Shown piece by piece: positions 3,328 through 62,169 of a stretch of DNA of 64,000 nucleotides. The notes beneath the pieces are model-generated. The model was not told the origin of the DNA. It was given only the letters and a program-made list of their open reading frames with translations, and did not search any database. The stretch is from a filamentous cyanobacterium Phorm 6. Lineage in GTDB: Bacteria; Cyanobacteriota; Cyanobacteriia; Cyanobacteriales; Microcoleaceae. Position 1 is the first letter of the stretch. Each line of letters opens with the position of its first letter. The stretch covers positions 1-64,000 of the forward strand of contig PVWI01000001.1 of assembly GCA_003003725.1 (NCBI GenBank), in the 5' to 3' direction. Position numbers and translations under genes: made by a program.

Positions 3328-3903
3328 ATGAAGGAATTTACCCTAAGAGGCTGCGCCGTGAAGGTTCAAGGGAATGGGCGCGCTAAGATTTTGACGCCTG
3401 CAGAAATTGACCGACTGTTTGACCGGGGTTTTATGACAGCAAGGGACAGGCTTTTGTTTGCTGTAACTTTTTACTGCGCCTGCCGCATTTCAGAGGCGTT
3501 AGCTTTAACAACTCACGACATTGTTGGGGGGTCAGTCACGTTGCGGAAAGCGACGACAAAGGGGAAATCAGCAACGCGAACGCTGCCGCTCCATCCTATG
3601 CTGGCTAAGTATTTAAAGGCTTACAATCCAGATGTGGGTTTTTTGTTTCCGGGGCGAGACAATACGAAGCCTTTGACTCGCGCCGCATCGGATGTGATTT
3701 TTAAAGAAGCTTGCAAGCGGGTAAGAATTAAGGGGGCTTCAACACATTCGATGCGGCGGACGGCGCTGACTAATTTGAGCAATGCGGGGGTGCCGCTGCG
3801 GGTGATTATGGAGATTTCGGGACACAAAAATTTGTCGAGTCTCCAGCGCTATTTGGAGGTACAGCCGGAACAGCTTGTCAAGGCGATCGCGCTTTTGAAG
3901 TGA
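3328..3903 (+). CDS. Tyrosine recombinase, catalytic domain only
   Basis: A tyrosine-recombinase catalytic domain of 191 residues. All catalytic residues are visible: Arg in CRISEALAL (about residue 53), Lys in the beta-hairpin TTKGKSATR, H-x-x-R in HSMRR, His in SGHKN and the Tyr nucleophile in LQRYLEV. The usual N-terminal SAM-like core-binding domain is absent, so the protein is about half the length of an XerC-type integrase, as in small cyanobacterial integrase-like proteins. Its place between debris and the DISARM locus suggests a role in mobility of this island (inference). No attachment sites could be identified. Confidence 0.85.
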   Translation: MKEFTLRGCAVKVQGNGRAKILTPAEIDRLFDRGFMTARDRLLFAVTFYCACRISEALALTTHDIVGGSVTLRKATTKGKSATRTLPLHPMLAKYLKAYNPDVGFLFPGRDNTKPLTRAASDVIFKEACKRVRIKGASTHSMRRTALTNLSNAGVPLRVIMEISGHKNLSSLQRYLEVQPEQLVKAIALLK

Positions 3904-4243: not shown

Positions 4244-7200
4244 ATGCAACTAAAAACTGGGCAAATTGTCAAGGTGCGATCGCGCCAATACCTCGTCGAA
4301 GAAGTCGCACCCAAATTCTCCGAGGATACAGACACCTTAGTGCGACTGTCGTGCTTAGAAGATGATGCCTTGGGAGAAAGCCTCGAAGTCCTGTGGGAGC
4401 GAGAAGTTGACGCCGTAGCGATCGGCAATAACTCCTGGGATTCCGTCGCGAAGCGGGGATTCGACAATCCTAAACTCTTCTCAGCTTACCTGCACACCCT
4501 GCGTTGGAACTGCGTTACTTCAACCGAACCCAAGCTATTTCAATCCCCCTACCGAGCAGGCATCGAAGTTAAAGCTTACCAGTTAGAACCTCTCCGCAAA
4601 GCCTTACTCATGCCGAGAGTTGGGTTATTTATTGCCGACGACGTAGGCTTGGGCAAAACGATCGAGGCGGGACTGATTTTGCGGGAAATGCTGATCCGCC
4701 AGAAAGTGCGACGGGTGGTAATTTCTTGCCCCCCTACTGTGGTGCGGCAGTGGCAAGAAGAAATGGAAAGCCGCTTCGGGCTCAGTTTCATAATTTGCGA
4801 TCGCTCCTTTGTGGCCACCTGCAGGCGCGATCGCGGGTACGGCATCAACCCCTGGACAACTCACACCCGCTTCATCATCTCCCATGCTTTGCTCAGAGAT
4901 GAAACCTACACCGGCCCACTGCGAGATTGGCTGGGCGAATTTGCAGCCGCATCGATGCTGATTTTAGATGAAGCGCACAATGCCGCCCCTGCCAGCGGCG
5001 CTAAATATGCCGTTGATTCCCAGCTAACTCGCACTGTGCGAGATTTAGCGCCTCGTTTTGAACATAAGTTATTTCTCTCAGCAACGCCTCACAACGGCCA
5101 TTCTAATAGTTTTGCAGCGTTGTTAGAAATTTTAGATCCGCAGCGGTTTTGCCGGGGTGTCCCCGTGCGCGATCGCAAATTACTCGACTCGGTAATGGTG
5201 CGCCGTCTCAAGCGAGACTTGCGGGAAATTGGCGATGATTTTCCGAGAAGGGAAGTGATTGCGATCTCGATCGACAACCTGCCTGAAACTGCACCCGAAC
5301 TCCAACTTTCGCGCTTGCTGCAACACTATCGACAATTGCGAGAAGAGCGATTGCAAGGTGAATCTCGCAGCAACCAAGCAGCGGCGATGTTAGTAATTAC
5401 CAATTTGCAAAAGCGCTTGCTGTCATCTATCGAAGCCTTTACTCGCACGTTGAAAGTTCACCGAGTAGCTTTAGAAAAGCAAGTTTCTAAACAGCCAATT
5501 TTGCGGTTAGAACGCTTACAACTGCTGTCTGAATCGGCGGGAGGTGATGATGAGCGGGCGGAACTGCCAGAGGAAGAAGTGCAGGCAGAAGAAGACGCAC
5601 AAATGGCAGCGGCAACTGCTAATAGTTTATCACAAATTACCCAGCGAGAACAAGAGATTTTGTCAGAAATGGCGGAAATTGCCAATGCTGCTCGTTATCA
5701 ACCTGACCCGAGAATTATTAAGTTAATTGACTGGATTAGACAAAATCTGTGTCCTGATTTAGGGCAGCCAAATGCTCAATGGTTAGAGCGGCGCGTCCTA
5801 ATTTTCACAGAATATACGGATACCAAACGTTACTTAGAAGAACAATTGCGATCTGCCTTCGCCAATTCTCACTTAGAACACCAACGAATCGGCGTTTTTC
5901 ATGGTGGCATTGGCGAGGAACGGCGCGAGGCTATTAAACAGGCATTTAACAGCGACCCAGCCAACAATCCTCTCCGCATTCTGATTGCCACAGATGCAGC
6001 ACGAGAAGGGATAAACTTACAAAATTATTGTGCTGATTTATTCCATTTTGACATACCTTGGAATCCCAGTCGCATGGAACAACGCAACGGTCGAATTGAT
6101 AGGAAGCTTCAGCGTTCGCCGGTTGTTAATTGCCATTATTTTGTATTGCCGCAGCGAATTGAAGATAGAGTTTTAGAGGTTTTAATTCAGAAGACAAAAA
6201 CCATTCAAGCAGAGTTGGGAACTTTGACACCTGTTGTTGAAAAAAGTATGTCTCGTTTGCTGCAAAATGGGATTATTCATAAAGAACTGGGGAAAATTAC
6301 TCAATCCATTGAACAAATATCCGTAGGGTGCGTCAGTCCTAATTCAAGTGGGCAGTTAGAAACATTTAATACTGACGCACCCTACACAATCAACTCAGAA
6401 ACAATTAATCCTAACACATCCACCGCCATTGGCGAAGAATTAGAAGAAATTCGCCTTCGCAAACAAGACCTCATTAAACAGATTTCCGAACTCCAAGAAA
6501 TGCTCAAGAAATCGCGGGATTGGTTAGGTTTAGATGACCGCCATTTTCGGGATGCAATCTCAGCTTCCTTGGAAATTTTAGGTGCACAGCAACTCAAACC
6601 CATTGACGTAATCGCAGCAAACCACAATCCAGAAACAGCGAAATGGGAAATTCCTGCACTTAACCAACGAGTCGGGGCAGATCCAACTTGGACAGTGACG
6701 CTGGATACCTTGAGAAAACCTCGCCAAAGAAGTCAACAACTGTGGGATTGGCGCAGGGAATCTCCCATCCGACCAGTAGTTTTTCGTGACCCAGGTTCTC
6801 TGGATGGCGAAGTGGTACACTTGCATTTAGAACACAAAATTGTGCAGCGATTATTGGGACGATTTTTAGCCCAAGGATTTCTGCATGATGAATTAACTCG
6901 CGCTTGTATTTGTCTCACGGATGACCCGATTCCTAAAGTTATTGCCTTGGGGAGATTGTCACTTTATGGAGAAGGTGCTACCCGACTTCATGATGAAGTA
7001 ATTGCCGTTGCTGCGGAGTGGACAGATCCGGCAAATAGGGGGCGGAAAAAACTGAAGCCTTTGGGAGAGGGAGAGAAAGAAAATGTATTGGAATTGCTAG
7101 AAAATTCTTTGGCAAATCCGCGATTGCGAGAGGTTTCTGAAGGGGTAAAAATTCGCCTAAAGGAAAGTGCGTCTCAGGATGTTGAGGAGTTAATTCCGAA

Positions 7201-7534
7201 CCTCGAAAGTCGGGCAGAAGTATTAGCCCAAAGGGCAAAGCGGAAGTTAAATGAGCGCGGTTTGAAAGAAGCAACTGAGATGAAGAAAATTTTAGAACAG
7301 CAGCAACAGCGCATTTTAGCACGGCAACAAGAAACTCAAGCGATTCAGTTATCTCTTTTTCCAGAAGAGGAACAGCGACAAGTGGATGCTGATAGGCGTT
7401 ATTGGCAGAAACGTCTGCAAAGTTTGTCTGAGGAATTAGTGAAAGAACCGGCTCGAATTGAAGCGATTTATCAGGTAAAAGCGGTGCGAATTGAACCAGT
7501 GGGGTTAATGTATTTATATCCGGTGTCGGGTTGA
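4244..7534 (+). CDS. drmD: DISARM DrmD, SNF2-family helicase
   Basis: A large SNF2-type ATPase/helicase of 1096 residues, the class 1 DISARM helicase thought to act on incoming phage DNA with the other Drm proteins. Visible motifs: Walker A DVGLGKT at about residue 133, DEAH at about 242, SATPHNG (motif III), and the C-terminal helicase core with FTEYTDT, ATDAAREGINLQ (about 582) and RNGRIDR (motif VI). The C-terminal third is helical and coiled-coil-like. It starts at ATG 4244. A palindromic repeat of 63 bases (6323-6385) is inserted in frame at about residues 694-714, between the helicase core and the C-terminal part. It is followed by drmMI on the same strand after a tandem repeat block. 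Confidence 0.93.
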   Translation: MQLKTGQIVKVRSRQYLVEEVAPKFSEDTDTLVRLSCLEDDALGESLEVLWEREVDAVAIGNNSWDSVAKRGFDNPKLFSAYLHTLRWNCVTSTEPKLFQSPYRAGIEVKAYQLEPLRKALLMPRVGLFIADDVGLGKTIEAGLILREMLIRQKVRRVVISCPPTVVRQWQEEMESRFGLSFIICDRSFVATCRRDRGYGINPWTTHTRFIISHALLRDETYTGPLRDWLGEFAAASMLILDEAHNAAPASGAKYAVDSQLTRTVRDLAPRFEHKLFLSATPHNGHSNSFAALLEILDPQRFCRGVPVRDRKLLDSVMVRRLKRDLREIGDDFPRREVIAISIDNLPETAPELQLSRLLQHYRQLREERLQGESRSNQAAAMLVITNLQKRLLSSIEAFTRTLKVHRVALEKQVSKQPILRLERLQLLSESAGGDDERAELPEEEVQAEEDAQMAAATANSLSQITQREQEILSEMAEIANAARYQPDPRIIKLIDWIRQNLCPDLGQPNAQWLERRVLIFTEYTDTKRYLEEQLRSAFANSHLEHQRIGVFHGGIGEERREAIKQAFNSDPANNPLRILIATDAAREGINLQNYCADLFHFDIPWNPSRMEQRNGRIDRKLQRSPVVNCHYFVLPQRIEDRVLEVLIQKTKTIQAELGTLTPVVEKSMSRLLQNGIIHKELGKITQSIEQISVGCVSPNSSGQLETFNTDAPYTINSETINPNTSTAIGEELEEIRLRKQDLIKQISELQEMLKKSRDWLGLDDRHFRDAISASLEILGAQQLKPIDVIAANHNPETAKWEIPALNQRVGADPTWTVTLDTLRKPRQRSQQLWDWRRESPIRPVVFRDPGSLDGEVVHLHLEHKIVQRLLGRFLAQGFLHDELTRACICLTDDPIPKVIALGRLSLYGEGATRLHDEVIAVAAEWTDPANRGRKKLKPLGEGEKENVLELLENSLANPRLREVSEGVKIRLKESASQDVEELIPNLESRAEVLAQRAKRKLNERGLKEATEMKKILEQQQQRILARQQETQAIQLSLFPEEEQRQVDADRRYWQKRLQSLSEELVKEPARIEAIYQVKAVRIEPVGLMYLYPVSG
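6323..6385. repeat. In-frame palindromic repeat inside drmD
   Basis: GTAGGGTGCGTCAGT (6323-6337) and its perfect reverse complement (6371-6385) flank 33 bases. The element is 63 bases, 21 codons, and is read through as VGCV...DAPYT without a stop. The same repeat family occurs between the DISARM genes. Confidence 0.9.
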
Positions 7535-7561
7535 GTCTGAGTAGGGTGCGTCAGAGTCTAG

Positions 7562-7780
7562 GTAGGGTGCGTCAGGTGATTATTCATAGTTATAGTTGGG
7601 TATTTTAAAGCTGACGCACCTTACAATTTAGGAAAGTAGGGTGCGTCAGCGGTTATTCATAGTTATAGTTGGGTATTTTAAAGCTGACGCACCTTACAAT
7701 TTAGGAAAGTAGGGTGCGTCAGGCGGTTATTCATAGTTATAGTTGGGTATTTTAAAGCTGACGCACCTTACAATTATACA
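7562..7780. repeat. Three tandem copies of a 73-74 bp palindromic unit
   Basis: Units start at 7562, 7636 and 7709. Each contains GTAGGGTGCGTCAG, then TTATTCATAGTTATAGTTGG, then CTGACGCACCTTAC, so each can fold into a hairpin. A further half unit lies at 7546-7559. The block separates drmD from drmMI and could act as an attenuator or a recombination hot spot; this is inference. Confidence 0.9.
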
Positions 7781-7811
7781 ATTTAGGGACAAGGTAAAGT
7801 CAGGAGGAACA

Positions 7812-10800
7812 ATGGCACAAGATCCAGAATTAATCAGACATAAAGAATGGTTGGGATTCTTGCAACCAGTGGGACTTGTTGTGTCGCCTCCCGCCTTAGT
7901 GAAATTTCAGTGCGTGCCGAATCGCAATATCGTTGAATTGCAGCAAGCTTTGCAAGAAATTATTACCACAAATAGCGACGAAAGTCAAGCATTAATTTCA
8001 GATTTTCCCGCGTTTGTTGCCGAGGTTTTGGGGTGGGAACCCTATGATTTAGTGGCAGAAATTGCTCCAGAATTCACGGTGCCACTTCCTGACTACGGCG
8101 AGACTTTAAAACCAACTTATACAGTTCTAGATCCAGAAGCCGTTCGCCCCTGTATATTAGTCCAAATTATAGAAAATAATCGCCCTTTTGATGAATTAGA
8201 TTTAGAATCAGAAAAAGCAGGTCAGTGGAATGCTTCGCCACAAGCAAAATTTGAACGCTTATTGCGCGAAACGAGCGTTAACGTGGGGTTATTGTGCAAC
8301 GGTTCGCTATTGCGCTTGGTTTATGCGCCGCGTGGCGAATCGTCGGGGTATTTGACGTTTCCGGTGGCGGCGATGTGCGAAGTGGCTGGCCGCCCAATTT
8401 TAAGTGCGATGGTAATGCTGTTAGGTTCGGATCGCCTTTTTGTTGCGCCACCGGAACGCCGTTTGCCAGCTTTGTTGCAGGAAAGCCGCAAATATCAAAG
8501 TGAAGTTTCAACAAAATTAGCCGAACAGGTTTTAGATGCCCTCTGGGAATTGCTGCGGGGATTTCAGACTGCGGATGAGGCGAGTAATGGTAAGTTATTG
8601 AGTGAAATTGCTCAAACAGAACCGCAGCATATTTATGGGGGATTGATTACAACTTTAATGCGGTTGGTGTTTTTGTTGTACGCCGAAGATGAGGGATTGA
8701 TGCCGCAAGATTCGGTGTATGCGCGGAATTATGCGGTGACGGGACTGTATGAACGGTTGCAAATTGATGCGGGAAATTATCCCGATACGATGGATCAGCG
8801 GTATGGGGCTTGGGCGTGGTTGTTAAGTTTGTTTGGGTTGGTTTATGAGGGCGGTGGCCATTTACCTCAGTATTTACCGGCCCGTCACGGTCAGTTATTT
8901 GACCCGGATGAATACCCGTTTTTACTAGGTAAAAAAGTAGGGTGCGTCGCCGCCGAAAATCTCAGTAAAATGTCAAAAACTGAACAAGCGACGCACCAAA
9001 CAAACTCAGTAGGGTGCGTCGCCGCCGAAAATTCGGGTGAGATGTCAAAAACTGAACAAGCGACGCACGAAACAACTCAAACAGCGACGCACGAAACAAA
9101 CTTAGAAACAGCAACGCATCTTACAGAAGTGCCGCGTATTTCCGATGGGGTGATTTTTCGCGTATTAAATCGGTTGTTGATTTTGGACGGAGATAGACTT
9201 TCTTACCGTGCTCTTGATGTAGAACAAATTGGTTCGGTTTACGAAGCGGTGATGGGTTACGAAGTCGAACGGGCCCAGAGTCCATCTATAGGAGTGTGGA
9301 GTAAACCTAAAAGTTCAAAAGTCTCAGTTACGGTTGTGGTTAGCGTCGAGGAAATTCTCAAAACTAAGGCAAATGACCGGGCTAAATATTTAAAAGAAGT
9401 GGCGGGATGCGAAATTACTGGTAATTCCCTCAAAGAGTTAAAGGAAGCGAAAACCGCCGATGATATAGTCGCGGCGTTAGGGCGGAAAGTATCAGCGCAA
9501 ACTCCTACTTTAATGCCTGTTGGTTCTCTTTATTTGCAACCAGGCGAAGAACGGCGGCGCAGCGGTTCCCACTATACCCCGCGCGCGATGACGGAACCAA
9601 TTGTTAAGGAAACTCTCAGACCGATTTTAGCAGCATTGGGAGAAGATGCCACGCCAGAAGAAATTTTAGAGTTAAAAGTTTGCGATTTGGCGATGGGTTC
9701 GGGGGCGTTTTTGGTGGAAACTTGCCGCCAGTTAGCAGAAAGGTTAGTGGAAGCTTGGAACAAACACAATTCTTTGCCGGAAATTCCCCTTGATGAATAT
9801 CCTTTGTTGTATGCGCGGCGGTTGGTAGCGCAACGGTGTTTGTATGGGGTGGATAAAAATCCGTTTGCAACTAATTTGGCGAAGCTGTCGCTATGGTTGG
9901 TGACTTTGGCGAAAAAACATTCGTTTACTTTTTTAGATCATGCGTTGAAATGTGGCGATTCTTTGGTGGGGTTGAATCGGGCAGAAATTGGGGAATTTGT
10001 TAAAGCAACTGATATTTATAATGCGCCTTTGTTATCCTTGCTGAAAAATCGGGTAGACCAAGCTAAGATTTATCGAGATGAGATTGGTAAGTTAGCTGAT
10101 GATCAAGATGAGGAAAAATGGGAACGTTTCCAAAAAGCCGAACAGGAATTAGAGGAAGCTAGGTTAACGGGAAATATTGCTGTCGCGGCTTTCTTTGCTG
10201 GGGAGAAAGATAAGGAACGCAAGGAAAAAAGAATCGAGTTTTCGCAGAAAATTAATGATTGGCGTTCAGGGGTTGTTAATCTCAAGCAAATAGAAGGTAT
10301 TGCTGAAAGTTTGCAGAGGTTAGAAAAGCCGATTCAGCCGTTTAATTGGGAGATAGAATTTCCCGAGGTGTTTGACAAGAAAAATCCTGGTTTTGATGCG
10401 ATTATTGGAAACCCACCGTTTGCTGGTAAGAATACAGCAATTAATGCTAACGCGCCCGGATATATGGATTGGTTAAAGGTAATTCATCCCGAATCGCACG
10501 GAAATGCTGATATAGTAGCGCACTTTTTTAGACGAGGGTTTACGATTCTGCGAAAAGGTGGTTGTTTTGGTTTAATTGCGACAAATACCATTGCCCAAGG
10601 TGACACGCGCAGCACTGGTTTAAGATATATCTGTCAGAAGGGTGGCACAATTTACAATGCAACAAAGCGGTTTAAATGGATTGGTTCTGCCGCCGTTGTA
10701 GTCAGTATTGTGAACGTCCAAAAAGTAGATACAGTAAGGTGCGTCGCTACAGAAAATCTCGATTCATCTCGAATATCTCCCGCAGCGACGCACCCTACGC

Positions 10801-12002
10801 AACTCGCGACGATGCACCCTACACTCGACGGGCGACAAGTTTCGCTAATTTCTGCATTTCTGTTTCATGCGGGGGGTAATGAAAATCCCCAACCTTTACT
10901 AGCAAATGCTGATAAAAGTTTTCAAGGTAGCATTGTACTAGGTATGGGTTTTACATTTGACGATACAAATCCCGATGCGACACCGATTGCAGAAATGCAC
11001 CGCCTAATTGAACAAAATCCTAAAAATCAAGAGCGTATTTTTCCTTATATTGGCGGTGAGGAGGTTAATTCTAGTCCAACTCACGCCCATAATCGCTATG
11101 TGATTAATTTTGGGGAGATGAGTGAGGCTGAGGCGTGGGAATATCCAGATTTGATGCAAATTGTAGAAGAAAAGGTTAAGCCTGCAAGATTAAAGCAAAA
11201 TCGAGAAATTCGGGCGCGTTATTGGTGGCGTTTTGGAGAAACTACACCTGCTTTGTTTAAAACGATCGCCAAGTGCGATCGTGTACTTGTTAATCCTTTA
11301 TATGGCAAATATCTTAATTTTGTATTTTTATCAAATAAAATGGTATTTGCCAATAAATTAAATGTAATGCCTTTTGATAAATATTCTGCATTTTGTATTT
11401 TACAAAGTAGAATACATGAAATTTTTGCTTGGTTTTTCAGTTCAACTTTAAAAGACGATCTTGCATACGCACCATCAGACTGCTTTCAAACCTTTCCCTT
11501 CCCCGAAAACTGGGAAACCAACCCCACTCTAGAAGAAATAGGCAAAACCTACTACGAATATCGCGCCGCCTTAATGATACGCAACAACCAGGCGCTCACC
11601 GACACCTACAACCGCTTCCATAACCCGGAAGATCGCCACCCGGATATAATAAAACTGCGACAATTACATCAAGAATGCGATCAAGCTGTATTAAAAGCCT
11701 ACGGGTGGACAGACATCGCCACCGACTGCGAATTCATCCTTGACTACGAAGAAGAGGAAGAAAGCGAAGGAATTAGCAAACGCCAGAATAAAAAACCTTG
11801 GCGGTATAGATGGCCCGAAGAAATCCACGATGAAGTGTTAGCGAGGTTGCTTGACTTGAATCTGAAACGCCATCAAGAGGAAAGTCTGGGAGGGAAAGCA
11901 GCCGAGGGGAAAGCGAAAGGAGGTAAAAAGACAGCTTCTAAATCTCGCAAAAAAGTTTCAGATAAGCCACCTAGTATTCCCGGTTTTCCTGATAGTCTGT
12001 AG
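7812..12002 (+). CDS. drmMI: DISARM DrmMI, N6-adenine DNA methyltransferase
   Basis: Class 1 DISARM methylase, expected to modify host DNA at N6-adenine so that self is distinguished from phage. I chose ATG 7812 because AGGAGG lies at 7802-7807; the open frame also reaches an upstream TTG at 7743, but that lies in a repeat. This gives 1396 residues. Motif I (MGSGAF) is at about residue 626 and the catalytic NPPF at about 866, with helical target-recognition regions on either side. Two tandem 72-bp repeat units (8937-9080) and a further palindrome (10734-10798) are translated as inserts (VGCVAAEN...QATH). The stop codon itself lies in another copy of the repeat. The C-terminus is Lys-rich. Confidence 0.92.
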   Translation: MAQDPELIRHKEWLGFLQPVGLVVSPPALVKFQCVPNRNIVELQQALQEIITTNSDESQALISDFPAFVAEVLGWEPYDLVAEIAPEFTVPLPDYGETLKPTYTVLDPEAVRPCILVQIIENNRPFDELDLESEKAGQWNASPQAKFERLLRETSVNVGLLCNGSLLRLVYAPRGESSGYLTFPVAAMCEVAGRPILSAMVMLLGSDRLFVAPPERRLPALLQESRKYQSEVSTKLAEQVLDALWELLRGFQTADEASNGKLLSEIAQTEPQHIYGGLITTLMRLVFLLYAEDEGLMPQDSVYARNYAVTGLYERLQIDAGNYPDTMDQRYGAWAWLLSLFGLVYEGGGHLPQYLPARHGQLFDPDEYPFLLGKKVGCVAAENLSKMSKTEQATHQTNSVGCVAAENSGEMSKTEQATHETTQTATHETNLETATHLTEVPRISDGVIFRVLNRLLILDGDRLSYRALDVEQIGSVYEAVMGYEVERAQSPSIGVWSKPKSSKVSVTVVVSVEEILKTKANDRAKYLKEVAGCEITGNSLKELKEAKTADDIVAALGRKVSAQTPTLMPVGSLYLQPGEERRRSGSHYTPRAMTEPIVKETLRPILAALGEDATPEEILELKVCDLAMGSGAFLVETCRQLAERLVEAWNKHNSLPEIPLDEYPLLYARRLVAQRCLYGVDKNPFATNLAKLSLWLVTLAKKHSFTFLDHALKCGDSLVGLNRAEIGEFVKATDIYNAPLLSLLKNRVDQAKIYRDEIGKLADDQDEEKWERFQKAEQELEEARLTGNIAVAAFFAGEKDKERKEKRIEFSQKINDWRSGVVNLKQIEGIAESLQRLEKPIQPFNWEIEFPEVFDKKNPGFDAIIGNPPFAGKNTAINANAPGYMDWLKVIHPESHGNADIVAHFFRRGFTILRKGGCFGLIATNTIAQGDTRSTGLRYICQKGGTIYNATKRFKWIGSAAVVVSIVNVQKVDTVRCVATENLDSSRISPAATHPTQLATMHPTLDGRQVSLISAFLFHAGGNENPQPLLANADKSFQGSIVLGMGFTFDDTNPDATPIAEMHRLIEQNPKNQERIFPYIGGEEVNSSPTHAHNRYVINFGEMSEAEAWEYPDLMQIVEEKVKPARLKQNREIRARYWWRFGETTPALFKTIAKCDRVLVNPLYGKYLNFVFLSNKMVFANKLNVMPFDKYSAFCILQSRIHEIFAWFFSSTLKDDLAYAPSDCFQTFPFPENWETNPTLEEIGKTYYEYRAALMIRNNQALTDTYNRFHNPEDRHPDIIKLRQLHQECDQAVLKAYGWTDIATDCEFILDYEEEEESEGISKRQNKKPWRYRWPEEIHDEVLARLLDLNLKRHQEESLGGKAAEGKAKGGKKTASKSRKKVSDKPPSIPGFPDSL
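8937..9080. repeat. Two in-frame 72-bp tandem repeat units inside drmMI
   Basis: Copies start at 8937 and 9009 and are nearly identical: GTAGGGTGCGTCGCC at the left and GCGACGCAC at the right. Each is 24 codons, so the frame is kept. Degenerate partial arms (GCGACGCAC, GCAACGCAT) follow to about 9120. Confidence 0.92.
10734..10798. repeat. Palindromic repeat inside drmMI
   Basis: GTAAGGTGCGTCGCT and AGCGACGCACCCTAC are complementary apart from one position. The copy is read as VRCVATEN...AATHPT. A partial third arm (GATGCACCCTAC) follows at about 10811-10822. Confidence 0.85.
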
Positions 12003-12061
12003 GGTGAGTCAGGGGAAGATTTATCGCTAATAGCAAAGAATTGATGAGTGACGCACCCTAC
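11999..12061. terminator. Palindromic repeat between the convergent drmMI and DUF3037 genes
   Basis: Imperfect arms GTAGGGTGAGTCA (11999-12011) and TGACGCACCCTAC (12049-12061) bracket 37 bases. The drmMI stop TAG is in the left arm and the DUF3037 stop touches the right arm, so the repeat probably serves as a bidirectional transcription barrier. There is no T-tract. Confidence 0.5.
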
Positions 12062-12895
12062 TCACACCATTGCAACTAACTTATCAATAGTCTGAGATGC
12101 CCAAGGTTGTACTTCATTTTCTTGCAAAACTTCCGCCCCCAAATCCCTGTAAGTTGAGATAGTTGTTTGATACACTTTGTTTAGTTTTTCATAATCCTGC
12201 CACTCTTGTTTTGGGGGAAGTGCAACAATTCCTATGGGCAATTTAGGATCAGATTCTTTGACATCTGAAATCATCCAAGAAATAGAATCTTGGAGACTTT
12301 CAGGAATGTGAACCTCAAAGGATATTCCGTGGGCGGCAAAGTAAGGTTGACCGTTAGCAACAACCGCATCAAACTTGTGTTCTTTATGACTTCCTTTTAC
12401 AGGAAAATCATTTTTTAGCATTTCTTTTAAAGCAGGTTTATCATCATAGGATATAAGAGTTTTTCTAATTATAGAAGTTGTAATTCTCGCAGCATCTTGG
12501 CGATTTCGCTTAGTTTTTGTAGGAACTACATTAACCAGGTAAGTCTGCGCGATATCTTCTAATAAATTCTCGACATTATCTAAAGATCCGTGAGGTTCTG
12601 TGAATTGAATACTGTTAATCCAACCCCGTGCAATTTTTTTTAATCGCTCATGTTTAGGAGTGCCATCTGGCTCATCTCCGGGAAAAAGCAAACCCTCACT
12701 GGCGGCGAAGTTCATTCGTTTTGCAAAGTCTCTGAGAAAATGAATATCTTCACGCCCAAAAGCCTGGACTCGACTCCAATTATTCAAAAATTGTACGCGC
12801 ACATCATTGTCATCAAAAGCAACAACACCAATATTAATCCGTTCATCAGTGATGGGATTGGGGACGTATTGAACGATACTATATCTGCTTGCCAT
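12062..12895 (-). CDS. DUF3037 family protein
   Basis: A protein of 277 residues. The N-terminus, RYSIVQYVPNPITDERINIG followed by VVAFDD, is the characteristic opening of DUF3037 proteins. The remaining 170 residues are longer than the usual DUF3037 protein and carry an alpha/beta region (FDAVVANGQPYFAAHGISFE). Its biochemical role is unknown. It lies 29 bases downstream of the HipA-like gene on the same strand; from general knowledge DUF3037 genes often pair with HipA-like kinases, which supports a two-gene unit. The pair is inserted, in reverse orientation, between drmMI and drmA, so it may be a toxin-antitoxin-like or regulatory passenger of the DISARM locus (inference). Confidence 0.75.
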   Translation of the reverse strand: MASRYSIVQYVPNPITDERINIGVVAFDDNDVRVQFLNNWSRVQAFGREDIHFLRDFAKRMNFAASEGLLFPGDEPDGTPKHERLKKIARGWINSIQFTEPHGSLDNVENLLEDIAQTYLVNVVPTKTKRNRQDAARITTSIIRKTLISYDDKPALKEMLKNDFPVKGSHKEHKFDAVVANGQPYFAAHGISFEVHIPESLQDSISWMISDVKESDPKLPIGIVALPPKQEWQDYEKLNKVYQTTISTYRDLGAEVLQENEVQPWASQTIDKLVAMV

Positions 12896-12924
12896 TGCTT
12901 TTGACTCCCTCTATAAGAAAGTGC

Positions 12925-13701
12925 TTACAAAAAAGTTAATAATTGTTGTTGCTGTCTAGTTAAGTATTCTACTAGAGTAACACGCTCGTCAAGAGTTAGC
13001 CCCCACTCGCTAGGCGGAGCCGCCACTGCTTGAATGATTGTTGCTTCACTGACGCTTTCAAGTTCCCGGAGTGCCGAGCTAATCTCATCTGGGGTAAAGT
13101 TGCAATTTTCACACAAATATGAGTTTAATTCAGCTTGGGGTGCTTGTATCAGATCACGCTCTGTCCAATTGGGGCCACCGGGAAAGAAATGACCATGATC
13201 CACCGAGTAAACTAATCGCGGTGGATTTTTCTTGAAAATAAACTGGATGTCGTTAGCATAGACCCATCCGTACAACACAGCAAGCAGAGCAAACCTGGAT
13301 CTATTTTCAGGTTCGCTAGTTGCAATCAAACCACAATCATCACGGCAATCTGGTATAAAGAGAGTAGCGTGTGCTGTGCCTGAAGGAATATGAGAGAGAC
13401 GAGGTTCAATCGCAATAAGTTCAGCCGACACTTCAACAATCTTAGGTTCGCCAACGGGTGCACCTATTGCAAAGCCAATCCTTGCAGTAATCTGGTCATT
13501 TACAATTTGTCTGCCTGCTTGCTGACCTTTAACGACATACTCTCCACCATCATTACACTTAAGCAAAACTGGTTCTGCTTTCGTCCTCCATCCTCTGCGA
13601 AAAGTTGTTGCCATGATGGGTATTCCAGGTTGTGAAAGCGCCTCGTTTAGCTTTCGCTTCCAGTTTTCCCTCGCGTTTTCTCTATTTTCGCTTTTGCCCA
13701 C
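12925..13701 (-). CDS. HipA-like kinase domain protein
   Basis: Resembles the short HipA-like (HipA_2) family: RRGWRTKAEPVLLKCNDGG followed by EYVVKG with the probable ATP-binding Lys, ITARIGFAIGAPVGEPKIVE, and SVDHGHFFPGG in the catalytic region. The open frame starts with GTG at 13701 (258 residues); the ATG at 13614 (229 residues, MATTFRRGW) fits the usual family start better, so the first 29 residues are doubtful. The classical HipA catalytic motif is not obvious, so kinase activity is not assured. It is the first gene of a two-gene unit with DUF3037. Confidence 0.7.
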   Translation of the reverse strand: MGKSENRENARENWKRKLNEALSQPGIPIMATTFRRGWRTKAEPVLLKCNDGGEYVVKGQQAGRQIVNDQITARIGFAIGAPVGEPKIVEVSAELIAIEPRLSHIPSGTAHATLFIPDCRDDCGLIATSEPENRSRFALLAVLYGWVYANDIQFIFKKNPPRLVYSVDHGHFFPGGPNWTERDLIQAPQAELNSYLCENCNFTPDEISSALRELESVSEATIIQAVAAPPSEWGLTLDERVTLVEYLTRQQQQLLTFL

Positions 13702-18206: not shown

Positions 18207-18343
18207 TTAGGGTGCGTCAGAAAAAAAGATTATTTAATTGCGAGCAAATTTCTCTCTGACGCAGCCTACAAATAAACTCAGTAGGGTGTATCAGAAAAAA
18301 AGATTATTTGCCTAGCGGAAGATTTCTCCCTGACGCACCCTAC
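18207..18343. repeat. Two palindromic repeats between drmA and drmB
   Basis: Units at 18207-18269 and 18281-18343 share TCAGAAAAAAAGATTATTT internally and have TAGGGTGCGTCAG-type left and CTGACGCACCCTAC-type right arms. A third, half unit runs from 18353 to 18387. Same family as the repeats at 7562-7780 and 6323-6385. Confidence 0.88.
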
Positions 18344-21073: not shown

Positions 21074-23650
21074 CTAATCTAACTTCTTCACTTTTTTAAG
21101 TGTACCATCTTCCTTAAGTTGGATAACTTTAACTTGAACAATTTGATTCTCTAATAAGTATTTTGAATTCTTTGGTTCTTTCTCTGTTAGCTTAATTGTT
21201 CCGACAATCTCATAAGTAACTTTGTTTCCTTTAATGCTAGTAACCTTCGCTTCTAAAACTTGTCCGACCCGAAAAGAATGGGTAGGAGAACTTACAGAAA
21301 GTTCTTTTTGTTCCTGTTCTGGTATTCCTAATTTTTTAACGATAGCGAGATATTGTTCGCGAATTTCTAAATTATTGGGATGTTCTTGTAGCCAAGCAGC
21401 CGTTTGGGAAAGTGCGTCATTCTGCTGTTCTACAGTTCCACATTTTTCTACTAATTTAAGGTACTGCTGACGCACATCAAAATCCTCAGTATGTGCTTGC
21501 AACCAAGCAGCCGTATAAATTATAACCTCTTGCTCTTCTTGTAGAATTCCTCTTTGTAAAACACTTTTTAAGTAGTCTTTTAATCTATCATAATTATTTG
21601 GTTCTTTTTGCTTAAAAATATAAAAACCATATCTCCAATTTATAGCGTTAATTAGTAGAGTTTGATCGTAGTTTTTTGAAACTCCCCACAAGTCAGCGAC
21701 GAGATCGAAACTCCCATCCGAGTTCTGACACCAGCCTAGATCGCAATCCCCTTCCAGAACAGCCACAATATCAGCCTGAGTTCTTATGTTTTTACTACCC
21801 CGCACATAATCATTAATTTTAACCTTAATACCTAGAGCGCTGATGGCAGCTTTCAAAATTTCCTTATCTTTGATTTTTGTACGGAGAGTAGAGAAATGAG
21901 CTGATAAATCGCTCCAAGTCGGAGGTGTGGCTGCTGGATGTTGAACAATTACTGGCAGCCAACTCGCACAGGGATTTACACCTTCTAATTTTTGCAACAT
22001 TTCCCTTGCCTGTTTTACTGAAAGGTACAAAGACATACCTTTTGAAAAAGCACCAATAAAATACTCTAAAAAGTGTTGGGCTAATACATCACTCACCAGA
22101 TCTCGCATGGTAATAATATGTGGAATCCCTAAGTCACCAAACTCTGCTTTACCTAAGCCTACTCCTTCGCAAGTATTGAATATACCTAGTTGTAATCCAC
22201 GTTCAATAGATGGCTTAAAACCATCTTTTAGTTCGCTGATGGTTAAGCTTTCCTGTGGATTTATACGCAGGATTCCAGTTTCAACATCTACTGTTCTCAA
22301 ACCATGTCCGGCGAATAAAAAAATATCCCAACCCTTTTCATCCCAAAGCTTTTTATATAGATTTTCTTTGCTTGGTTCTACCATAAACTCTATTTCTGCG
22401 TCTAATTTTTCAATCGTTTTTCTCTCAAGTTCAACATCTATTGATTTAGTGTCAACCAAAAGAGCTAAGATGCGGGCTTTTAAACGAGAAGAGTATAGTT
22501 TTTTCGCTGGTTCAGTTACTCTAGCACTGAGAGCCACTTCGCTTTGAGGAAAATGGTCTAAAATATCCCAGAGATGCCAAGGCAATCGGCGCAATAAGTT
22601 ATCTTCAGCTTTAATTATTACTCGCACTCGATTGGAACCTGACAAATTCTTAATTAGTGCATCTTGAATAGGGTGAAATAATTTTGATTTAAGCCAATTA
22701 TTTAGAGCTTCTTGTAACAATTGGGCTGCAATCTGAAGATCGTCACGCGAAAAGTTAGTTTGTACTGCTGCATTTGGTTCAAGCCTTACTAAATTTTGAT
22801 TCATCCGATAAAGGAATTGCCACTTTTGATAGCGATCGATAATTTCTGAGGCTAAGGGAAGCCTACCTCTCTGCTTAATGAAGGGGATATCACCTTCTAA
22901 GCTAATTTCAAGCAACACATTAAATCCGTTATCAACATCACCAACGAATGTGAGAAGAGCTAACTTTTCAACTATTGGCTTTGGTTTAAAAGCATAGTAA
23001 CCTGAAGGAACATTAGTAATTTTTTTGCTATCTTGTTTGTTAGGTTTATTATCATCTTCACTCTTTCCTTTCCTAATCTCATTAACCAAAACCAACAGCG
23101 GCTCAAATTCTACTAAAGGTTCTGCAAAAGCTTCTACCAATGACACCAACCGGAGTTGTTCCGACTTATCTTGTTTATAAGCTTGTTCGAGCATCGCTCT
23201 TAACTCTTGTGCAGCCTCAGTGGGGCGCACATACGCCAAAGCTGTCCACCGCTGCGCCTGAGCAAAATCCCGCACCTCTTGGTCATTACTCTGAAGTTGC
23301 TGTCGCACATAAACTAATAGAAAATCAGACAACTCATTAATCCGCTGCTGCCCAAAATTCTCATTCTCTTTCAACCGATTCAACAGCGAATTTCGTACCG
23401 CTGTATCCATTTCATAGAGTTCTCGCCCTACCTCATCGCACAAACTCGAAAGTAGCAAATCCGCCACAGCTACCCAAGGAATTCCTAACACAAATCCGTG
23501 AATATCTCGCTGAAAATTAGCCCACAACTTGTATAACAAATCCGGTGTTAAAGCCAAGGGAAATGCCGCATGACACGCAAAAATTAAGTGCGTTCTTCCA
23601 AAACGCTTCTCGAAAGCTTCAATTCGTCTGCGGGCTACTTCAGGTTTCAT
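21074..23650 (-). CDS. CHAT protease with Ycf35-like, TPR-like and S1-like domains
   Basis: An 858-residue multidomain protein, last gene of the CHAT-iSTAND/MoxR/vWA operon. Residues 1-220 form a helical domain (FGRTHLIFACHAAFP). The array-typical CHAT module follows, with LRRLPWHLWDI; the catalytic pair is His in FAGHG (about 450) and Cys in NTCEG (about 494). Residues about 580-690 closely resemble Ycf35/DUF1257 (AHFSTLRTKI, CDLGWCQNSDGSFDLVADLW), followed by two TPR-like repeats and a C-terminal S1/OB-like domain (FRVGQVLEAKVTSIKGNKV). In vWA-MoxR ternary systems a third protein carries the effector; this one would be a protease effector possibly directed to RNA or ribosomes (inference). 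Confidence 0.8.
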   Translation of the reverse strand: MKPEVARRRIEAFEKRFGRTHLIFACHAAFPLALTPDLLYKLWANFQRDIHGFVLGIPWVAVADLLLSSLCDEVGRELYEMDTAVRNSLLNRLKENENFGQQRINELSDFLLVYVRQQLQSNDQEVRDFAQAQRWTALAYVRPTEAAQELRAMLEQAYKQDKSEQLRLVSLVEAFAEPLVEFEPLLVLVNEIRKGKSEDDNKPNKQDSKKITNVPSGYYAFKPKPIVEKLALLTFVGDVDNGFNVLLEISLEGDIPFIKQRGRLPLASEIIDRYQKWQFLYRMNQNLVRLEPNAAVQTNFSRDDLQIAAQLLQEALNNWLKSKLFHPIQDALIKNLSGSNRVRVIIKAEDNLLRRLPWHLWDILDHFPQSEVALSARVTEPAKKLYSSRLKARILALLVDTKSIDVELERKTIEKLDAEIEFMVEPSKENLYKKLWDEKGWDIFLFAGHGLRTVDVETGILRINPQESLTISELKDGFKPSIERGLQLGIFNTCEGVGLGKAEFGDLGIPHIITMRDLVSDVLAQHFLEYFIGAFSKGMSLYLSVKQAREMLQKLEGVNPCASWLPVIVQHPAATPPTWSDLSAHFSTLRTKIKDKEILKAAISALGIKVKINDYVRGSKNIRTQADIVAVLEGDCDLGWCQNSDGSFDLVADLWGVSKNYDQTLLINAINWRYGFYIFKQKEPNNYDRLKDYLKSVLQRGILQEEQEVIIYTAAWLQAHTEDFDVRQQYLKLVEKCGTVEQQNDALSQTAAWLQEHPNNLEIREQYLAIVKKLGIPEQEQKELSVSSPTHSFRVGQVLEAKVTSIKGNKVTYEIVGTIKLTEKEPKNSKYLLENQIVQVKVIQLKEDGTLKKVKKLD

Positions 23651-30002: not shown

Positions 30003-30064
30003 GAAACCGGGTTTTTGGCTAAATACTTGGTTGCAGCCGACAGATGCGGTAAAAACCCGGTTTC
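30003..30064. repeat. GAAACCGGGTTTTT palindromic repeat
   Basis: GAAACCGGGTTTTT at the left and AAAAACCCGGTTTC at the right, 62 bases overall. It lies between the E2-like and JAB-E1 genes and is the first of a tandem pair. Confidence 0.88.
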
Positions 30065-30085
30065 TTTGGTCTGGATGGGGGGCGA

Positions 30086-30148
30086 GAAACCGGGTTTTTG
30101 GCTAAATACTTGGTTACAGCCCGCAGATTTGCTTAAAAACCCGGTTTC
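30086..30148. repeat. GAAACCGGGTTTTT palindromic repeat, second copy
   Basis: Same as 30003-30064, including an identical GGCTAAATACTTGGTT interior segment, 63 bases. The tandem pair occupies most of the gap between the E2-like and JAB-E1 genes. Confidence 0.88.
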
Positions 30149-30181
30149 TTTGCTCGGAGTGGATCGGCTGCGATCTCGTTT

Positions 30182-53530: not shown

Positions 53531-53631
53531 GGTCTTTCCTTTGATTTTACTGACAATGTTTAATCGTTTAATTTGTGAGGAGTTATGCGGATTTTTGAGG
53601 AAGTTACTTAGTCCTGGATGCAAGGGGGGCA

Positions 53632-53694
53632 GAAACCGGGTTTTTGCCTGAATCTGCGGGATGCAACAAAGTATTTTGAGAAAAACCCGGTTTC
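53632..53694. repeat. GAAACCGGGTTTTT palindromic repeat
   Basis: 63 bases, GAAACCGGGTTTTT left arm and AAAAACCCGGTTTC right arm. First of a tandem pair in the gap between the 52226 and 53786 genes. Confidence 0.88.
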
Positions 53695-53715
53695 TTTGGT
53701 CACATTGGAGGGGCA

Positions 53716-53778
53716 GAAACCGGGTTTTTCACTGAATCTGCTGGCTACAACGAAGTATTTTGGTAAAAACCCGGTTTC
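53716..53778. repeat. GAAACCGGGTTTTT palindromic repeat, second copy
   Basis: 63 bases, same arms. A further half copy (GAGAACCCGGTTTACG) at about 53791-53806 forms the last codons and stop region of the 53786 gene. Confidence 0.88.
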
Positions 53779-53785
53779 TAGGCTC

Positions 53786-54844: not shown

Positions 54845-54864
54845 AGGCCATATAATACAGGTCA

Positions 54865-54928
54865 GAAACCGGGTTTCTGCGTAGATATCTATTGATAAAC
54901 CAAAGATTTTGCCGAGAAACCCGGTTTC
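54865..54928. repeat. GAAACCGGGTTT palindromic repeat
   Basis: GAAACCGGGTTTC at the left and GAAACCCGGTTTC at the right, 64 bases, just downstream of the TPR-CHAT gene, where it could act as terminator. Confidence 0.85.
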
Positions 54929-57737: not shown

Positions 57738-57791
57738 GGTTGTGCTGCCTCGATAAAGTTGTAAAAACAGGACTTACGCACTCCGATCAAA

Positions 57792-57855
57792 GAAACCGGG
57801 TTTTTTACTGAATCTACGAGTCACAACCGAGATTTCTCGTAAAAAACCCGGTTTC
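57792..57855. repeat. GAAACCGGGTTTTTT palindromic repeat
   Basis: 64 bases with GAAACCGGGTTTTTT and AAAAAACCCGGTTTC arms, in the 162-base gap before the TPR-CHAT gene; CAGGACTTACGCA precedes it at 57769-57781. Confidence 0.85.
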
Positions 57856-62102: not shown

Positions 62103-62169
62103 GTAGGGTGCGTCAGCTAGAACACGATACGCTTACATGGGAAACGATGAAAGAACTGACGCACCCTAC
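62103..62169. repeat. GGGTGCGTCA palindromic repeat after the NB-ARC gene
   Basis: GTAGGGTGCGTCAG (62103-62116) and CTGACGCACCCTAC (62156-62169) are perfect inverted 14-base arms, 26 bases downstream of the 62195 stop. This is the only full copy of the DISARM-region repeat family outside that region, and a possible terminator. Confidence 0.85.

Follow-up and report, generated by a model that had tools for sequence, protein, structure and literature searches.

In a 64,000-nt stretch of the filamentous cyanobacterium Phorm 6 (assembly GCA_003003725.1, contig PVWI01000001.1, positions 1 to 64,000; hereafter the window), two neighbouring genes of the DISARM defence system, drmD and drmMI, contain in-frame copies of a palindromic repeat of about 64 bp that is dispersed through the genome. 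We consider it about 85% probable that this Microcoleus-wide palindrome was inserted in frame in the linkers between domains of the two proteins, and that the inserts have since drifted as tolerated selfish DNA. An initial annotation had placed palindromes of 63 bp, 72 + 72 bp and 65 bp in frame in the two genes, and the coordinates, unit lengths and frames were all confirmed. The two genes and their inserts are as follows.

4244–7534, forward strand: drmD, SNF2-type helicase of DISARM (PADLOC DrmD, E 0; Pfam Helicase_C and SNF2).
6323–6385, forward strand: in-frame palindrome in drmD, residues 694–714 (63 bp, perfect 15-bp arms).
7812–12002, forward strand: drmMI, DISARM adenine methyltransferase, Type IIG/MmeI-like (1396 aa from ATG 7812; PADLOC DrmMI, E 0).
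8937–9080, forward strand: drmMI site 1, in-frame palindrome as a tandem of two 72-bp units, residues 376–423.
9081–9130, forward strand: extra right-arm fragments continuing the site-1 insert to about 9130 (from the sequence and homologue alignment).
10734–10798, forward strand: drmMI site 2, in-frame palindrome of 65 bp, residues 975–996.
10799–10829, forward strand: site-2 insert extended to about 10829 by a second right-arm fragment (from pairwise alignment).

The in-gene segments are copies of an inverted repeat of ~64 bp with arms GTAGGGTGCGTC around a variable centre. When the 6.64-Mb assembly was searched with a strict pattern, 103 matches were found (56 forward, 47 reverse), and the reversed control pattern gave 0. 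A covariance model trained on 65 aligned copies yielded at least 150 matches in the same genome (the best 150 of 3167 candidates scored), and when 194 kb were searched the four in-gene copies had E values between 1.5e-16 and 7.5e-13. Because three or all four of these copies were among the training rows, their matches to the model follow by construction, and independent support comes from the strict pattern. Combining both searches gave at least 120 distinct places in 95 clusters, a count that omits window position 7541, which overlaps 7562, and the weak match L091:530. Family matches were also present in 20 of 20 congeneric genomes, at 65–150 each.

The copies span 61–69 bp over the arms, with terminal inverted repeats of 12–15 bp as in miniature inverted-repeat transposable elements (MITEs). 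With rows oriented so that the better GTAG end came first, 61 of the 65 aligned copies started with GTAG, 28 ended with CTAC and 24 had both. Two subfamilies were distinguished, carrying CGTCAG (30/65) or CGTCGC (33/65). Many congeneric matches to one CGTCGC copy (L063:2480–2610) reached about 128–135 bp, and part of this subfamily thus sits in a longer unit whose tail is conserved. Paired inverted units were common (for example, L040 3975/4101 and L047 1057/1125).

Comparison with homologues indicated that the in-gene segments are insertions of this dispersed element. DrmMI was compared with 80 loci of other, named genomes, with 78 rows spanning site 1 and 80 rows spanning site 2. The linker had a median length of 14 aa at site 1 and 9 aa at site 2, and at both sites the family peptide was found only in Microcoleus sp. 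LEGE 07076 (locus L270), whose DrmMI was the nearest named one (95%), which makes Microcoleus the probable genus of the present genome. The covariance model returned 15 matches over the 80 loci, 14 in L270 and one marginal match in L298, and in-gene copies were present in L270 only. L270 carries the same inserts in the same places at 96% nucleotide identity, including a drmD copy identical at 60 of 63 nt. The comparison with distant homologues that the initial annotation had proposed thus favoured insertion, the same peptides being missing from them.

The inserts differ in age. Among the aligned loci from a draw of 386 genomes of the phylum, they were shared by a second congener, G336, alone. 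Its drmD copy is decayed (E 6.5e-6), with 2 and 1 mismatches in the arms. Its site-2 copy is barely recognisable (12.8 bits, E 0.1), with 2 mismatches in the left arm and no right arm within 2 mismatches; one right-arm-like fragment follows there, compared with two right-arm fragments in the window. A site-1 copy was not found in the drmMI of G336. Two of the insertions, in drmD and at site 2, thus predate the split from G336, and the site-1 tandem is younger.

In the window, GTA opens a codon at the start of every in-gene copy, at 6323 in the drmD frame from 4244 and at 8937, 9009 and 10734 in drmMI, so that the left arm encodes V-G-C-V in three copies and V-R-C-V in one. The initial annotation had reported this single frame correctly and had taken it as the signature of stop-free survival, on the grounds that a shifted frame puts TAG in the left arm. 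This holds for one of the two shifted frames only. When the 89 non-genic copies were read on both strands (178 readings), 74 were open in the frame that has GTA as a codon, 73 in the one after it (xGT AGG GTG CGT) and 13 in the TAG frame. Two of the three frames are thus equally open, and the survival of open copies suffices to explain the observed frames. Three independent sites would share a frame by chance with a hand-computed probability of roughly 0.1 for the GTA frame to 0.2 for any one frame. We rejected frame uniformity as evidence of selection because it is too weak.

To place the inserts in the proteins, we used two AlphaFold models (23 and 33 sequences), which had mean predicted local distance difference test (pLDDT) scores of 72.8 and 71.0. 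The best structural matches were MmeI (5hr4) and BrxX/PglX for DrmMI and RapA for DrmD, and only MmeI was also matched by sequence; the Pfam domains of DrmMI are Eco57I, MmeI_Mtase and MmeI_TRD. In DrmD, pLDDT was <50 at residues 650–733, a stretch wider than the insert at 694–714, indicating that this linker would be disordered anyway. In DrmMI, pLDDT was <50 at model positions 180–236 (protein residues 379–435), where the inserted stretch is 376–440, and at model positions 777–786 and 788–800 (residues 976–999), where it is 975–1005. Site 2 lies at the end of the methyltransferase part, immediately past the segment aligned with MmeI residue 580. The models thus put all three inserts in loops of very low confidence, predicted to be disordered in both proteins.

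The inserts and the enzymes around them evolve at different rates. The drmMI genes of the window and L270 differ at 132 positions in 3369 nt. By the Nei-Gojobori method, the drmMI inserts contained 15 non-synonymous and 4 synonymous changes (pN/pS 1.2), whereas the remaining drmMI contained 42.5 and 70.5, respectively (ratio 0.17; Fisher p 0.0009 versus the inserts). In drmD, 3 of 63 nt of the insert differ, falling in two codons that both change the residue, and the ratio for the part of drmD compared, insert included, was 0.11. Judged by these substitutions, the enzymes are constrained and the loops unconstrained between the two Microcoleus, which argues that the inserts are tolerated selfish DNA. 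The inserts do add peptide loops to the proteins, as had been proposed, but only in the anatomical sense; we saw no sign that the loops do anything, and their evolution is neutral.

We propose that a ~64-bp GTAG-tagged, REP (repetitive extragenic palindrome)- or MITE-like palindrome, presumably mobilised in trans by transposition, was inserted into the interdomain linkers of the two enzymes. The surviving copies would be those that happened to be open, kept the frame and landed in loops that the enzymes can extend; the loops are probably translated, and enzyme activity is presumably unimpaired. Local duplication may then have enlarged the inserts, producing the tandem unit at site 1 and the right-arm fragments at both drmMI sites, and the inserts now drift without detectable selection.

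Several observations weigh against this account. The rate test rests on one pair of genomes and small insert counts, and any sequence that lacks aligned homologues would be modelled with low pLDDT. No transposase bearing the family arms was found: two Y1_Tnp genes were inspected for a REP-associated tyrosine transposase (RAYT) flanked by the repeat, and no arm (≤2 mismatches) was present in the surrounding 6.4 kb and 3.9 kb, although a RAYT may lie elsewhere, have been lost or carry other arms. Comparing our own stretches with 58 congener stretches and L270, mostly selected as carriers of the element, gave no filled/empty pair with a clean junction and no target duplication, and a flank search for empty sites in 29 congeners returned divergent intergenic regions in which no such pair was seen. 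Finally, neutral drift leaves the confinement of the in-gene copies to drmD and drmMI unaccounted for.

This confinement is pronounced. An open-frame scan counted a copy as in a gene when the frame stayed open for 15 codons or more past both of its ends and the codon score was positive in each direction; the score was trained on 21 window ORFs, drmD and drmMI among them. Of 95 rows in a first set 5 were flagged, and of 28 in a second set none. One flagged row (window 21407–21480) was dropped, its arms having 3 and 4 mismatches and the covariance model not reporting it. The genome-wide count called for in the initial annotation thus gave four in-gene copies, all in drmD and drmMI, as the only ones found among the 120 places. 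This count rests on the best 150 of 3167 model candidates and the pattern matches listed, and further decayed in-gene copies may exist elsewhere in the genome. The other 116 places were outside a coding frame by the scan, and the family thus lies mainly between genes, with copies often grouped. The remaining copies in the window are as follows.

7541–7771, forward strand: intergenic array between drmD and drmMI (lone left arm 7541–7552; units 7562–7624, 7636–7697 and 7709–7771).
11999–12061, forward strand: palindrome overlapping the end of drmMI, whose GTAG supplies the TAG stop at 12000–12002.
18207–18343, forward strand: two palindromes between drmA and drmB (18207–18269 and 18281–18343).
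62103–62169, forward strand: intergenic copy, the sole one in the rest of the window.

The DISARM set spans ~4.2–20.2 kb of the 64-kb window and consists of drmD, drmMI, drmA and drmB (PADLOC); we take it to be of the class 1 type. ATG 7812 is the more likely start of drmMI, because it has AGGAGG upstream and agrees with homologues, whereas TTG 7743 falls within the intergenic array. Between drmMI and drmA (12062–13701), a DUF3037 gene and a HipA-like kinase gene lie on the opposite strand.

Six of the 95 clusters lie within a 12.1-kb island where 0.16 would be expected (Poisson p 2e-8 for this named stretch and about 1e-5 allowing for all stretches), and other 12.1-kb stretches hold at most 2 clusters, except those starting inside the same island. 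This concentration could reflect an insertion hotspot, in which the element prefers the island DNA or the island came from an element-rich donor, and the in-gene copies are the in-frame survivors of many hits. We give this explanation slightly less than even odds; it is compatible with tolerated in-frame insertion, and both can hold. The 12-kb island has ten of the 120 places, mostly between genes or at their ends, and an ORF with a phage integrase domain (3328–3903), a possible island end, lies directly upstream of drmD. DISARM is also patchy: among the 386 genomes, DrmMI was matched in 17 and DrmD in 27, and DrmMI was missing from 5 of the 7 congeneric genomes in the draw. However, no target motif was identified, and the 19.5-kb stretch of G336, with the same genes, contains no copies beyond the two old ones in genes, indicating that the island was not equally hit in both genomes.

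The same concentration, together with the retention of two inserts since before the G336 split, might instead mean that the loops or mRNA hairpins were recruited for DISARM, for example to control drmD–drmMI expression or to tune the enzymes. We consider this improbable, since the inserts have a pN/pS of about 1.2, the arms are decayed in G336 and almost all other DrmMI proteins are without such an insert. An ancestral origin of the peptides, as original parts of the two proteins that happen to resemble the repeat, can be dismissed despite two of the three sites being common to another species, because in the 78 and 80 homologue rows family peptides occur in the near-identical L270 alone and the DNA matches the dispersed family at the nucleotide level. 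The assembly is of a repeat-rich short-read genome in 526 contigs, but an artefact is refuted by the independent genome L270, with the same inserts in the same places, and by G336, with two decayed ones.

Other repeats occupy the DrmMI linkers in other bacteria. At site 1, a palindrome with 17-bp arms was found in Dolichospermum (L285) and one with 13-bp arms in UBA11153 (L284), and Hydrococcus (L272) and G131 (L157) have a repeat there with further copies in their own locus. At site 2, an Isosphaeraceae metagenome-assembled genome (L295) has a palindrome with 17-bp arms, the arm matching 24 times in Rubripirellula (G409) and nowhere else in the Isosphaeraceae genome itself. G191 and G042 carry a repeat peptide of 47 residues at this site, in one or two copies, and the corresponding DNA has 10 matches in G042, 2 matches in G191 and 36 matches in G048. 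Strong palindromes were also present at two further DrmMI linkers (about 651–659 and 818–836) in L298, L282, L284, L331 and L287. Separately, the site-1 linker of L328 (Rubripirellula) is 20 residues long, with a peptide, GIGFQPVDTNDRQDAHPT, that looks repeat-derived.

In three genomes (G002, G368 and G131), drmMI is split in two frames at site 2, between the methyltransferase and target-recognition parts. In G002 (L155), the frames of 917 and 427 aa are adjacent with no insert, a naturally two-part DrmMI. In the other two, toxin-antitoxin-type genes intervene: a UPF0175 ORF and a nucleotidyltransferase ORF in G368 (L156:2516–3799), and MazE-like, PIN and Phd-like ORFs in G131 (L157:1–1480), where the gap also holds a copy of the palindrome family (169–232). 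The drmMI halves of G116 are on two contigs. Most DrmMI homologues are without extra repeats or splits at the linkers.

DrmMI contained 10 palindromes with arms ≥12 and spans ≤90 in 314.6 kb, and the flanking ORFs, after 4 runs of N were dropped, contained 5 in about 529.6 kb (p 0.029); 3 of these 5 lie in DrmD homologues. With arms ≥10, 53 palindromes were counted versus 36.8 in codon shuffles (86 rows, window included). These counts hint weakly at a general palindrome excess in DrmMI over its neighbours, and we treat the recurrent use of the DrmMI linkers by other repeats as a lead, not a result. A tentative proposal, which we regard as less likely than not, is that the linkers of DrmMI, and of DrmD, are convergent landing sites for unrelated palindromes and toxin-antitoxin-type genes across phyla, lengthening or splitting DrmMI and making DISARM a preferred refuge for selfish DNA in coding sequence. 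If so, DISARM would also be a source of naturally split methyltransferases, and such a linker preference would point to permissive, experimentally useful sites in DrmMI and raise the question of why a defence operon tolerates selfish DNA. The puzzle in the present genome is that all in-gene copies found sit in two neighbouring DISARM genes and essentially every other copy lies outside genes.

Two further repeats were noted. A longer inverted-repeat element with ends CAATACGGTTCACTTAA (L270, about 1597–1735) lies within one palindrome of the drmD–drmMI array of L270 and is flanked on both sides by AGTTATAGTT, which looks like a target duplication. A second dispersed palindrome, AGAAACCGGGTTTTT ... 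AAAAACCCGGTTTCT, is intergenic at window positions 30051–30149, 53626–53779, 54859–54928 and 57786–57855, and is also present twice within drmMI of Planktothricoides (L298).

Very small mobile dispersed repeats in cyanobacteria were reportedly described by Elhai in 2008. In the literature searched, with subscription papers outside its scope, the strings TAGGGTGCGTC and TAGGGTGCGTT had only unrelated occurrences, no published family name was found, and neither the element nor palindromic inserts in DISARM genes had an earlier report. The family resembles the GTAG REP superfamily in having GTAG at one end, a palindromic structure, dimers and arrays, a mostly intergenic location including gene ends, a TAG that supplies stop codons, and occasional in-frame copies encoding 20–30 residues (PMC3733652). 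REP termini often give TAG stops, and in-frame GTAG/CGTC REPs have been described from several phyla, many of them within genes for DNA synthesis and repair (PMC3733652). However, our units of 61–69 bp fall outside the 20–40 bp of that superfamily and have a large variable centre, and no RAYT flanked by the family arm was found here; REPtrons can be missing (Di Nocera 2013, PMC3733652). The superfamily includes the cyanobacterial families GTAG-12, GTAG-15 and GTAG-16 (Di Nocera 2013, PMC3733652). Paired inverted units also recall REPINs (Bertels and Rainey 2011, PMC3116915), but a unit of our family forms a single long stem-loop and often occurs alone or in tandem.

The element occurs both between genes and in frame in proteins whose homologues are without the insert, the trait of protein-coding palindromes. 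Rickettsia and Wolbachia proteins are known to contain in-frame palindromes (PMC2229807, PMC10969869), the Rickettsia palindromic elements (RPEs) inside proteins being credited to Ogata 2000 and 2002. Of the RPEs in the first report on R. conorii, nearly half are intragenic (PMC10969869), and an RPE insert tested in gmk was described as neutral or slightly detrimental (PMC2229807, PMC10969869). The resemblance to RPEs drawn in the initial annotation is borne out by a dispersed palindrome, in-frame insertion in functional proteins, an extra loop and apparent neutrality. RPEs differ in being 105–146 bp long, unrelated in sequence and from another host, and in-gene copies are far rarer here, at 3 sites of 95 clusters versus nearly half in R. 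conorii; Rickettsia RPEs proper are CGTC-tagged families, set apart by description through both tag and host (PMC3733652). In-frame palindromes in proteins being already known, the inserts extend them to a cyanobacterial defence system, and the rate test presents such loops as neutral passengers inside conserved enzymes.

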